DNA of 64,000 bases. It comes from Chloroflexota bacterium. Lineage in GTDB: Bacteria; Chloroflexota; Limnocylindria; Limnocylindrales; CSP1-4. The notes beneath the pieces are model-generated. The model saw only the letters and a list, made by a program, of their open reading frames with translations, was not told where the DNA came from and did no database searches. The stretch covers positions 124,001 through 188,000 of the forward strand of contig SCUO01000093.1 in assembly GCA_004297395.1 (NCBI GenBank). Reading direction: 5' to 3'. Positions within the stretch are counted from its first letter, which is position 1. Every line of letters begins with the position of its first letter. Shown one piece after another: positions 53,425 to 57,047 of the stretch. The position numbers and the translations under genes were made by a program.

Positions 53425-54075
53425 CTGATCCGCGTCGCGATCGTCGACGACCACCCGATCGTGCGCGACGGCACGGCCGCGATCCTCGGCGCCCAGCCGG
53501 GCCTCGAGGTCGTCGGGACGGCCTCGAGCGTCGACGAGGCGGTCGAGCTCATCCGTCGCGAGCCGATCGACGTCGTCCTGCTCGATATCCGGCTCGGCAC
53601 CGATAGCGGCCTGCGACTGCTCCGGGAGGATCTCGGCGGGTCCGCCGCAGCCGGCGCGACCGCCGGCGCGACCACCGCGGCCACGCCCACCCCCGCGGTC
53701 GTCGTCCTCTCGGCCTACGACTACCCCCAGTACGCCGAGGCGGCGATCCGGCTGGGCGCGGCCGGCTACGTCATCAAGACGGCGCCGCTCCCCGAGCTCC
53801 TCGCCGCGATCGAGCGGGCCGCCGCGGGCGGGATGGCCTTCAGCGTCCGGCCACGGGCCGGCACCAGCGCCCACCTGACGGCCCGCGAGCTCGAGGTGGT
53901 CCGCCTCGTCATCGACGGCCGGAGCAACGACGAGATCGGGGCCTCGCTCCAGATCGGCGCGAAGACCGTCGAGACGCACCTGCGTCGCCTCTTCGAGCGC
54001 TTCGATGTCGCGTCAAGGACGGAGCTCGCGGCCCGCGCCCTGCGCGAGGGCTGGCTGGACATTCCGCCCGACTAG
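53425..54075 (+). CDS. NarL-family response regulator
   Basis: This 216-residue regulator has a receiver domain (acidic VDDHP at residues 7-11, phosphoacceptor Asp in VVLLDIRLGTDSG near residue 54) and a LuxR-type helix-turn-helix (LTARELEVVRLVIDGRSN, then VETHLRRLFERFDVASRTELA). No ATG, GTG or TTG begins it in frame. CTG at 53425 gives the standard M-IRVAIVDDHP start, and ATT at 53404 overlaps the kinase stop. A low-complexity AAAGATAGATTAATPTP insert of about 18 residues sits before the fourth beta strand. Confidence 0.88.
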   Translation: MIRVAIVDDHPIVRDGTAAILGAQPGLEVVGTASSVDEAVELIRREPIDVVLLDIRLGTDSGLRLLREDLGGSAAAGATAGATTAATPTPAVVVLSAYDYPQYAEAAIRLGAAGYVIKTAPLPELLAAIERAAAGGMAFSVRPRAGTSAHLTARELEVVRLVIDGRSNDEIGASLQIGAKTVETHLRRLFERFDVASRTELAARALREGWLDIPPD

Positions 54076-54315
54076 CTGTGATGAGCGGACACGCTGTTGA
54101 CAGCCCCGGCGTCCGGGAGCCACATCGGTCGCGGCTCCTCGCTCCGCCGCCGTGATGCGGCTGGCTCATCAGATACGCGACAGACGAGCGTGGCCGGGCA
54201 CGATTCCTGTCGAATCGGAGGGTTGGCTGAGCGTGGACGGGCGCCGATCGATGAACCAGACGCATCAGCCGGACCGATTCGCTCGGTCAACGACGTCTTC
54301 GTGAATCACAGCTAG
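54072..54315. mobile_element. Candidate 244-bp MITE-like element
   Basis: The ends carry an 11-bp perfect inverted repeat (CTAGCTGTGAT at 54072-54082 and its complement at 54305-54315). A further match of ACG-N2-GTTGAC lies at the same distance inside both ends, making about 28-bp imperfect terminal repeats. The left end overlaps the TAG stop of the response regulator. There is no transposase; two 72-codon frames inside (one per strand) have no recognised domain. Confidence 0.45.
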
Positions 54316-54345
54316 CGGGTGCGCCAAGGCGCCGCGATGGCGGGT

Positions 54346-54975
54346 TCATTGCACGCCCTGCCCGGGCAGGACCGGATAGCACCCCGCGAATGCCGGTTCC
54401 GTCGGCCAGCCACCCGTTGGAAACTCGCCCGCGACGAGCAACCCGGATGCGTGGTACGGGTCGTCGAACGTCCCCGCCGCGTCATGGCGGCTGACCTGGA
54501 ACATCACCGCGTCGCGCTGCCGCGCGACCAGCTCGCCGCCATCGGTTCGGAGGCTGAGGTCCGGGTCGAACTCGGCGATGAATCCGGTCGGCCAGATGAT
54601 CGACATCCGGGTCCCGTCGTCGGCGACGAGCCAGACCGGATCCTCCGGCGCGTCGACGGACCCGTCGAGGCGTCCATACACCGGCTCGTCGACACCGATT
54701 GAATCGCACGAGCCGGGACCCACGAGGAAGGTCCGGATCGTCACCGCGGCAGCAGCCGGCGTGGAGGCGGCGGGGGTGTCAGGACTCGGCGTCGGCGCCT
54801 CGCCTGGGCCCGTTGGCGACGGACCGACGGCCCCGCCACAGCCCCCGACGACGACCGCCAGGGCGACGAGCGCGCGCCACCTGCCGAGCGGGCGGAACGT
54901 CGCCGCTCCGGTACTCAGGGCGTTGACTCGCTCGAGCGACCTCGTGGCGCCGGGCGCCGCCTCTGCTGTGTCCAT
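54346..54975 (-). CDS. Lipoprotein with GCYP C-terminal motif
   Basis: This 209-residue protein has a lipobox (ALVALAVVVGGC, Cys near residue 46) after an unusually long N-terminal stretch; a later start is possible. A Thr/Pro/Ala linker follows. The C-terminal domain contains SIGVDEPVYGRLDGSV, SIIWPTGFIAEFDPDLSLRT, DPYHASGLLVAGEF and FAGCYP. It is related to the small protein at 27244-27690, sharing DPY-x-A-x-GL and GCYP. The ATG lies 2 bp after the stop of the trypsin-like protease gene on the same strand, so it is probably coexpressed with it. Confidence 0.75.
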   Translation of the reverse strand: MDTAEAAPGATRSLERVNALSTGAATFRPLGRWRALVALAVVVGGCGGAVGPSPTGPGEAPTPSPDTPAASTPAAAAVTIRTFLVGPGSCDSIGVDEPVYGRLDGSVDAPEDPVWLVADDGTRMSIIWPTGFIAEFDPDLSLRTDGGELVARQRDAVMFQVSRHDAAGTFDDPYHASGLLVAGEFPTGGWPTEPAFAGCYPVLPGQGVQ

Positions 54976-54977
54976 CC

Positions 54978-57047
54978 CTACCACCCGGTTCCGATGATCG
55001 AGGAGACGCCCCATCCGGCGGCCGGGTGGCGATACAGGTACAGGTTGCCGTTCTCGTGTCGGGCAACGATGTCGTCGCTGCCGTCACCATCGAAGTCCGA
55101 GCCAAGGATGATCGTCATGTTCTGCCACCCTTTCCCGATCTCGACCGGATTCGAGAACCCGGCCGCCGTATGGCCGTAGAGGAGCATCGCCCCGTCGTTG
55201 CGGACCGCGATGAGGTCGTCGGCGCCGTCCGCGCTGAAGTCGGCGGCGGCCAGGACGGCCATGTTCTGCCAGCCCCGGGTGCCGATCTTGATCCGCGTGC
55301 CGAACCCGGCCGGGGTGTGCGGGTAGAGCCACAGCGCGCCGGTCGCCTCCTGGGCCACCAGGTCGGCGTTGCCGTCCCCGGTGAAGTCCGTCGCGACGAT
55401 GGCCCCGAAGGCATTCCAGCCGCCGTTGCCGATGGTCTGACGAGCGAGCCAGCCGGCCGGCTGGTGGGGATGGAGGTAGAGCCTGCCGTCGCCGCCACGA
55501 GCGATGACATCGGCATGCCCATCACCGGTGAAGTCGGCCGCGGTGAAGGCCGTGTAGAGCTGCCAGCCGGTCGTGGTCGGCGAGAGCGTGCCGAACCCGG
55601 CCGGCGTGTGCGGATACAGCCGGGCCTGGCCGTCGTTCTCGGCGGTGACGAGATCGGGCGCGCCGTCACCCGTGAAGTCGCCCTCGACGATGCCCGGCTT
55701 GTTCCCCGGACCTCCCGGGTACGGGTAGCAGGCGTTGCCGAGCCGCTCGTAGCAGCTGTCGATGAGGGTGACGTTGCCCAGGCTGTTGTTGAGGATCCCG
55801 ACGGCCGTCCGGGTTGTGGCGGTCTGTGCCCAGACGGGCGAGCCGCTGTCGCCCGGCAGGGAGCTGAGGGTCGTGTCCAGCCCGAAGACCGTCACGTTGC
55901 CGCCCTTGTCGCTGACCCACGAATCGTCCGCATCCGTGACGATGCCCTGCTGGACGACGTCGCTGTGACCGCGTGACGTCCACACGATCGTGTTCTCGAA
56001 ACCGTACTCGTCGTCCTTGAAGCCGAACATCCGGCGGCCGTCGGTCGGGCTGTAGACGAGCGTCGTGGCCTCGTTGTCCTCCATCGAGACGACCATGATG
56101 TCGAACCCACCGGCGAGCAGGGATCCCCCGACGATCTCGGTCCCGACCTTGCGACCGCCGGATCCGTGATAACCCTCGTGGTACCAGCTGTTGCCGCCGG
56201 AATAGCCGCAGTGCCCGGCCGTCACGAACGAGACGTCATCCGTGACGTCGCTGTACACGTGCATCCCGATCGTGCAGTCGTCGACGCTGGTATCCCCCTT
56301 GGCGATCCTGATCCCGGGCACCAGGGGGAACTCACAGTGGTCCCGGTCCTGGCAGGTGGTGTCGCGTGGGGCGACGCGCGGGACGAGGGTCACGGACATG
56401 CCCAGTCCGGCCTCGAGGGCGGCCAGCGCATCCCCGGCCGCGTGGAGGTCGACCGGATCCACTCGCACCTCGAGGCGATTCGCGCGGGTGTCGATGCCGA
56501 CGCCGGTGAGCGGCGGCGCGCCGGGAACGCCGGCCCACAGCCCCCAGGCCTCGTGCATCGCCGTCCGCAGCGATGCGTGGCTGCGGGCCGCCGGGACGAT
56601 CCGAACGCCCTTGCCGCCTTCTGGGACGAGGCGTTCGATCTCGGCCGTCACGTCGTCGTCCAGCTCGGTCAGCATGACCACGAGTCGACCGCCGTCGCGC
56701 TGGTCGTACCAGGCCCCGCCGAACGTCGGCAGCCGGGTGATGAACGGGGCGAGCTCCTCGTCGACCCGGGACTGGAAGACCTCGCGGCCCGGAAGGTCGA
56801 GGGCCAGTCGTTCCGCCGGGGTGACCTGCTGGCGTTGCAGCAGGAGCTCCGAGATTCGCGCGGACGATGCGTGAAGCCCGAACGCGGCCCGGAACTCGGC
56901 CAAGTCCTCGCGCTCCCGCTCGGGTGGAAGGTCGCGCTGGCTGCCACGCCCGCCAGGATCCTCCGCGCGCACTGGGCTCAGGGCTCCGCCCGTGAGGACG
57001 GCCATCGCTGCCACCAGGCCGGCAGCCCCCAACCGCCGTGTCGCCAT
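54978..57047 (-). CDS. Secreted trypsin-like serine protease with FG-GAP/VCBS repeats
   Basis: This 689-residue secreted protein has a signal peptide (LGAAGLVAAMAVLTGGALSPVRA), a propeptide-like helical region (35-210) and an S1 domain. The S1 domain shows SFVTAGHCGYSGG with the catalytic His, an Asp in FDIMVVSMED, and LPGDSGSPVWAQ with the catalytic Ser. Cys pairs in the S1 region suggest disulfides. The C-terminal 240 residues are five FG-GAP-type repeats (DFTGDGxPDLV, LYPHTPAGFGT), which form beta-propeller or calcium-binding blades. It is a likely extracellular protease with a polysaccharide- or cell-binding propeller. The start could also be GTG at 57050. Confidence 0.9.
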   Translation of the reverse strand: MATRRLGAAGLVAAMAVLTGGALSPVRAEDPGGRGSQRDLPPEREREDLAEFRAAFGLHASSARISELLLQRQQVTPAERLALDLPGREVFQSRVDEELAPFITRLPTFGGAWYDQRDGGRLVVMLTELDDDVTAEIERLVPEGGKGVRIVPAARSHASLRTAMHEAWGLWAGVPGAPPLTGVGIDTRANRLEVRVDPVDLHAAGDALAALEAGLGMSVTLVPRVAPRDTTCQDRDHCEFPLVPGIRIAKGDTSVDDCTIGMHVYSDVTDDVSFVTAGHCGYSGGNSWYHEGYHGSGGRKVGTEIVGGSLLAGGFDIMVVSMEDNEATTLVYSPTDGRRMFGFKDDEYGFENTIVWTSRGHSDVVQQGIVTDADDSWVSDKGGNVTVFGLDTTLSSLPGDSGSPVWAQTATTRTAVGILNNSLGNVTLIDSCYERLGNACYPYPGGPGNKPGIVEGDFTGDGAPDLVTAENDGQARLYPHTPAGFGTLSPTTTGWQLYTAFTAADFTGDGHADVIARGGDGRLYLHPHQPAGWLARQTIGNGGWNAFGAIVATDFTGDGNADLVAQEATGALWLYPHTPAGFGTRIKIGTRGWQNMAVLAAADFSADGADDLIAVRNDGAMLLYGHTAAGFSNPVEIGKGWQNMTIILGSDFDGDGSDDIVARHENGNLYLYRHPAAGWGVSSIIGTGW

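Follow-up and report, generated by a model that had tools for sequence, protein, structure and literature searches.

The element at the end of a response-regulator gene

The window analysed is a stretch of 64,000 nucleotides from contig SCUO01000093.1 of a Chloroflexota draft genome (GCA_004297395.1, here G000). Within it, a histidine kinase gene is followed by a response-regulator/LuxR-type ORF with Response_reg and GerE domains, the best named relatives of which were uncultured Chloroflexi MAGs, RBG_16_70_13 being the closest. As shown in Table 1, an element with inverted ends adjoins the regulator gene. A repeat search of the window gave terminal arms of 30 nt each, complementary at 23 of 30 positions (77%), with 184 nt in between. 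A sequence-only reading had described this element as MITE-like, and its length of 244 bp was right; the pattern CTAGCTGTGAT, 8 nt, ACG, 2 nt, GTTGAC was present at either end as described, but it sums to 30 nt and not to the 28 bp given for the repeats. That the left repeat supplies the TAG stop of the regulator was also confirmed, since TAG at 54073–54075 ends the response-regulator/LuxR-type ORF. The single listed ORF of at least 80 aa crossing the element was a mechanical minus-strand frame and not a transposase, in agreement with the claim that no transposase lies inside. The flanking hexamers of this copy, ACTAGC and GCTAGC, differ at one base, so that the duplication comprises CTAG and one further base.

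Table 1. Coordinates of the features at the regulator locus (positions in the window)
Feature	Position	Strand	Remarks
Response-regulator gene (Response_reg + GerE), host gene	53428–54075	+	stop TAG 54073–54075; start codon provisional
Left target-site copy ACTAGC (NCTAGN)	54071–54076	.	contains TAG, the stop codon of the regulator
Probable IS481-type MITE	54072–54315	+	244 bp, both CTAG tetramers counted in
Left terminal inverted repeat (CTAG + CTGTGATGAGCGGACACGCTGTTGAC)	54072–54101	+	24.3 bits, matrix made from IS481-type ends of relatives only
125-bp polar palindromic core, family-wide repeat (model R1)	54147–54271	-	142.2 bits, E 7.4e-36 in own genome
3′ arm of core palindrome (model strand)	54153–54170	-	
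Second CCACGCTC motif	54186–54193	-	43 bp from first
First CCACGCTC motif	54229–54236	-	
5′ arm of core palindrome (model strand)	54250–54268	-	
Right terminal inverted repeat	54286–54315	-	30.5 bits, same matrix of IS481-type ends of relatives
Right target-site copy GCTAGC (NCTAGN)	54311–54316	.	

Copies in the source genome and the locus in relatives

The source genome is a draft (3.08 Mb in 143 contigs, 85% complete), the contigs of which break inside copies of the element. Twenty-one matches were found in it at E ≤ 0.001, the window copy counted, which is far beyond chance. Ten of these were close matches on ten contigs (L001–L010, window counted), six of them whole and four contig-end halves, and the nine other than the window copy were 87–96% identical to it; the multiple insertion sites that the sequence-only reading had expected of a MITE were thus found. 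The four halves were identical wherever overlaps were compared and may represent two elements split by the assembly, so that the close copies number 8 to 10. Between L004 and L005 there were 3 differences in 227 positions, none of them in the part shared with the other halves. The eleven further matches shared the interior only, at 73–79% identity. No copy of the MITE was detected by blastn in plasmids and phages.

The kinase–regulator pair was present in relatives G008 and G004 (87% and 78% DNA identity), extending to window position 54068. The element was absent at the orthologous regulator locus of both, and a single copy conserved there in all relatives, which had been named as evidence against a MITE, was therefore not seen. 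The DNA downstream of the regulator was not orthologous in either genome, so that neither offered a clean empty site.

IS481-type ends and target site

The IS481 transposase model NF033577 matched in 16 of the 37 genomes searched, and over its curated cut-off in four of them (G001, G014, G015 and G016); matches below the cut-off are unspecific, the model also ringing in 9 of 14 control genomes. MITE-like ends lay beside CTAG at five of the six loci with a transposase over the cut-off, the IS481 ends of the relatives reading TGTGATTC.C....ACGTTGTTGAC or nearly so. Exact 6-bp NCTAGN flanks (GCTAGC, CCTAGC, GCTAGC and GCTAGA) were found at all four IS481 loci with both flanks readable, two in G014 (same genus) and two in G015 (same family).

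An end matrix was built from ten IS481-type ends of relatives, three of them from loci below the NF033577 cut-off. With it, the 12 ends of the six MITE copies that have both ends all scored 15.9–30.5 bits, and only 3 of about 800,000 positions scanned in G000 reached 15.9 bits (25.9, 20.3 and 17.4). The matrix ends had been located by their likeness to the MITE ends, so that the matrix alone is partly circular, whereas the exact flanking repeats are not. Independent support is given by the ends at five of the six loci over the cut-off and by the exact NCTAGN repeats at four of four.

CTAG was kept at 9 of the 12 ends of the six two-ended copies and lost at 3. The base after CTAG was equal on both sides in five of these copies and the base before it in three, so that the 6-bp duplication is imperfect. 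The short target duplications that the sequence-only reading had looked for were accordingly borne out in part, by the CTAG at the ends and by the exact repeats around IS481 elements of relatives, and not by the full hexamers flanking the MITE.

No IS481 transposase (NF033577) was detected in the 85%-complete draft of G000, and a search of this genome with the end pattern returned only ends of the present MITE family; an autonomous partner may have died out or may lie in the part that the draft lacks. Other members of the genus did have full IS481 elements in their genomes. MITEs usually have a partner in the same genome but do not need one, and its lack in G000 therefore does not exclude membership. 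Nineteen IS481 loci were searched for the 125-bp core and none had it, which speaks against the core as an IS481 interior; nothing thus shows the MITE to be an internal deletion of one of these elements.

Two observations concern other IS481-type ends. A lone end, CCAGGTGTGATTCCCGGACAGGTTGGTAACC, scoring 25.9 bits and unrelated to the MITE copies, was located at L193 (G000:C19:1-20000) and is probably a relic of another old IS481-type element. Three contig ends of G029 (L026, L038 and L041) carried IS481-type ends followed by subterminal GGTGAGAGCC...GGCTCTCAC, probably from a multi-copy IS481 element collapsed in the assembly.

Placement at stop codons

An in-frame TAG stop abutted all six two-ended copies and 8 of 10 copies when halves were counted apart (7/8 or 8/8 if the halves pair); at L004 and L010, halves with one end visible each, no stop codon was seen. 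As a baseline, 39 of 101 CTAG sites of G000 (38.6%; sites far enough from stretch ends, with genes called by codon-position G+C and not by a gene finder) were in-frame TAG stops of gene-like ORFs. Binomial P values against this baseline were 0.003 (6/6), 0.0096 (8/10) and 0.007 (7/8). In 464 kb of G000, window included, CTAG was about tenfold rarer than base composition predicts (about 1195 expected), and the stops of gene-like ORFs were TGA in 306, TAG in 178 and TAA in 11 of 495.

Since CTAG is rare, more than a third of its sites are stops and disruptive insertions were presumably lost, the surviving copies would be those at stop codons. The position is thus explained by the choice of CTAG as target, probably combined with the loss of insertions that did harm. 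By duplicating CTAG, the insertion would have preserved the stop, and the regulator gene is intact. This is likely to be a general rule, by which CTAG-targeting transposons spare genes where CTAG is rare and often a stop.

A palindromic core more widespread than the element

Eleven old copies in G000 led to the model R1, which has 125 positions and was built from 25 copies, the window copy among them. In G000 the 32 matches of R1 fall at 28 distinct places, two of which are partial, since four matches are the opposite strand of a place already counted; the core being nearly palindromic, per-genome match counts include such opposite-strand matches. Matches were found in 8 of 15 genomes of the genus, the other 7 having none. 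A family sample and a phylum sample, searched with stricter filters than the genus, gave matches in 22 of 101 and 6 of 301 genomes, respectively, and the six all belong to that family. The core thus has a patchy distribution and, at the sensitivity of these searches, was found in a single Chloroflexota family; it is more widespread than the MITE, occurring in more places and more species. The exact core pattern was found neither in viral contigs nor in named genomes.

Copies of different age were distinguished in G000. In five young ones, core and flanks were alike (0.84–0.98 identical to the window copy); in the eleven old ones the core was 0.65–0.80 identical, and the left and right flanks were 0.45–0.65 identical against null levels of about 0.52 and 0.55. 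Three of the old copies still adjoin a TAG stop, at 43 (L014), 43 (L021) and 50 nt (L015), the distance in the young ones being 41; the other old copies had no TAG stop near the place where the left end, now lost, would have lain. It is therefore probable that some of the old copies, at least, arrived as the same MITE, of which the core was then kept. On the left, at the distance expected, IS481-type ends were recognised in G008, G013 and a single G007 copy; the scanned copies of G002, G029, G076 and G086 showed none clearly.

Some copies were grouped or had other surroundings. Arrays of three cores (L153, G002:C199:2533-2978) and of two (L134, G007:C22:33464-33781) were seen, with the cores about 150–190 bp apart; near clustered cores no neighbouring gene was consistently in common (10 proteins, three loci). 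In G007 (L137–L149), core copies had other common flanks, GCATCCCA.. to the left of some and ..GGGATGCCTCC to the right of some, and an alignment of ten G007 copies showed left and right sequences in common that differ from the MITE ends. These flanks are possibly a second MITE type, or decayed IS481 ends. A target duplication belonging to the core itself, at the edges of the palindrome, was also sought and rejected, nothing being clearly above shuffled controls.

Conservation, covariation and orientation of the core

An alternative account holds that the 125-bp core is a chromosomal site used by the host, for a DNA-organising or replication/segregation protein, and that the IS481-type ends are one of its vehicles. 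We consider this unlikely, although several properties of the core are in its favour. Its persistence in the eleven old copies, at 65–80% identity beside flanks near the null level, is one, and its recurrence through the family and phylum samples, always within one family, is another.

The spacing of the two CCACGCTC motifs is a third. Among 97 full-length copies (from 103 places kept; 150 of 155 matches aligned, with positions taken from the model alignment) it was 42–44 bp in 77, 53–54 bp in 15 and other in 5. The longer form, one helical turn more than about 43 bp, occurred in G008 (6 copies) and in G076 and G086 (9 copies), the latter two in another genus; since copies from one genome cannot be taken as independent, it represents at least two events, not fifteen.

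Covariation of the arms also speaks for a maintained site. In the 97 copies, a count fitted to the model and including L020, L045 and L168 (the same copy as L037), the arms paired at 73% of tested cells when in register and at 14–32% when the register was shifted. In a 25-row alignment, 43 cells were changed on both sides against 24.6 in shuffles, and none of 500 shuffles reached 43; this count excluded five badly aligned rows (L020, L031, L033, L037 and L045), which favours structure, and covariation scores are inflated by the relatedness of the copies. Two further measures over the 25 rows did not stand above the shuffles and count against a host site: 17 pairs showed a both-sided change (15.2 in shuffles), and further pair types numbered 42 (39.2 in shuffles). 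From an initial alignment of 30 rows, RNAalifold predicted hardly any structure (5 pairs).

Finally, the orientation of the core agreed with the sign of the local GC skew at 20 of 27 cores in G000, an exploratory count, and at 36 of 53 in five other genomes fetched afterwards (P 0.013; per stretch 27/40, P 0.038), and it did not follow the gene strand (39 against 41). The bias is small, however. It was carried by G007 (17/20) and G029 (12/16), with G002 at 3/5, but failed in G013 (4/10) and G076 (0/2), and after correction for gene strand it was 49/77 (P 0.022), with 15/26 in G000. We treat this weak bias, seen in some genomes only, as a lead. A competing reading is a transposase preferring one orientation at the replication fork; an interaction of transposases with the clamp is reported for many IS families (PMC4549789).

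Against a host site stand also the patchiness of the core within the genus, where 7 of 15 genomes are without a match, arms that are species-specific and so resemble repeat amplification rather than a fixed site, and the lack of a known partner protein. A fuller version, which we rate as distinctly improbable, would make the core a hitherto undescribed DNA element of the chromosome, directional and specific to the family, in which two direct CCACGCTC motifs share a helical face within a co-evolving palindrome; a dedicated protein would bind it, its polarity would be related to replication, and stop-codon-homing IS481-type MITE ends would be its dispersal vehicle.

RNA, REP-type and terminator explanations

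The core might instead be a structured non-coding RNA or a 3′-UTR RNA element, which we judge very unlikely. The compensatory changes in the stem fit an RNA, and one strand of the window copy folded into a hairpin with z of -2.65, but folding of four other sequences or strands gave z of only -0.4 to -2.0. Over 23 column pairs of the 97 copies there were 161 G–T and 160 A–C mismatches, and the 19-pair stem by itself had 81 and 100 (P 0.18). Neither strand is clearly favoured as an RNA, and the palindrome is therefore read as kept at the DNA level. Among 86 core entries, 31 lay between convergent, 26 between tandem and 5 between divergent genes, with 24 unclassed (116 convergent and 117 divergent gene pairs in G000 at large), and between tandem genes the two orientations were equally frequent (13 each) although the CCACGCTC motifs are asymmetric, which counts against an RNA. 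For the 27 cores of G000 the numbers were 10 convergent, 13 tandem, 1 divergent and 3 at contig ends, the window copy being misread as tandem by the rough gene caller. Rfam at E ≤ 1 gave no match in window positions 53500–55000 and none at the core across 14 loci. A sub-threshold match to the Pseudomonas sRNA P10 (26.4 bits, gathering threshold 37) was noted at L012:3062-3130, outside the core.

Taken together, arms that covary without significant strand bias and a core that outlives its flanks suggest a putative protein-bound module conserved at the level of DNA.

The element could also be seen as a REP/BIME-type repeat mobilised by RAYT, a Y1 tyrosine transposase, in that it is palindromic, multi-copy and mostly downstream of genes. 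REPs are 20–40 bp with GTAG or CGTC tags (PMC3733652), whereas the element here is 244 bp with DDE-type terminal repeats and a target duplication. Y1_Tnp (PF01797) was found in 0 of 101 family-sample genomes, G000 included, and rang in 5 of 14 controls. To the extent that such mobilisation depends on a Y1 transposase encoded in the same genome, this rules it out for the family, and the explanation has hardly any probability. A bidirectional terminator, or another single-locus regulatory palindrome of the regulator operon, would suit a long stem placed after the regulator and before a minus-strand ORF, but dispersed copies on ten contigs and absence at the orthologous locus of two relatives make it just as implausible.

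Proposed origin of the element

The sequence at 54072–54315 is in all likelihood a non-autonomous IS481-type MITE, presumably mobilised in trans, with a wider-spread palindromic core. The MITE interpretation of the sequence-only reading is thereby backed by copy number, by CTAG at the ends and by a matching transposon family with NCTAGN repeats in relatives; its other suggestion, a palindromic regulatory unit, would be a possibility for the inner core only. An IS481-family transposase acting in trans would have recognised the TGTGAT...ACGTTGTTGACA-like ends, and insertion at CTAG would have duplicated the target (NCTAGN). At the regulator this CTAG would have been the last base of the final sense codon followed by the TAG stop. 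Disruptive insertions elsewhere were presumably lost while copies at stop codons survived, and the core was conserved at the DNA level, most likely through binding by a protein.

The new part is the core of a repeat family in uncultured Chloroflexota, which has a fixed or one-turn-longer motif spacing and outlasts the transposon ends, and it is this conserved core that most deserves the attention of specialists. It provides a concrete sequence with which to seek a binding protein, and raises the question whether mobile repeats can seed directional chromosome signals.

Comparison with known systems

Bacterial MITEs (e.g. MITEAba12) are short, lack a transposase, carry the terminal inverted repeats of a known IS family and are multi-copy. 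The present MITE is an ordinary element of this kind in a little-known lineage; it is unlike bacterial MITEs generally in that its core also occurs well outside the MITE and persists where the ends are lost. The papers found in literature searches describe, judging by titles and abstract openings, neither an IS481-type MITE in Chloroflexota nor this core.

NCTAGN is the reported target of IS481 (PMC3053399, PMC2516522, PMC6794481), one insertion at CCTAAC being reported as well (PMC3053399). IS481 of Bordetella pertussis and ISLxc2 of Leifsonia xyli share this target with the MITE, and the ISLxc2 ends, TGTGTTTCTCAGGGACGTTGGT, have the same TGTG..ACGTTG build (PMC3053399, PMC2516522). ISLxc2 is 1,105 bp against 244 bp for the MITE, which differs from IS481-family insertion sequences in having no transposase and in its core, detected at none of the IS481 loci that were examined. 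The stop-codon effect is already described for a related transposon, TnRErm46 of Rhodococcus equi (IS481 family), which is flanked by NCTAGN repeats and at some target genes has TAG as the stop, leaving the gene uninterrupted (PMC6794481). Unlike the MITE, TnRErm46 is 6.9 kb long and carries its own transposase and cargo genes (PMC6794481).

REP/RPE repeats are, like the core, palindromes with family-specific stems between genes (PMC3733652). The core differs from them in the lack of a Y1 transposase in the family sample, and it is much longer, polar, and furnished with two direct CCACGCTC motifs at a fixed helical spacing.
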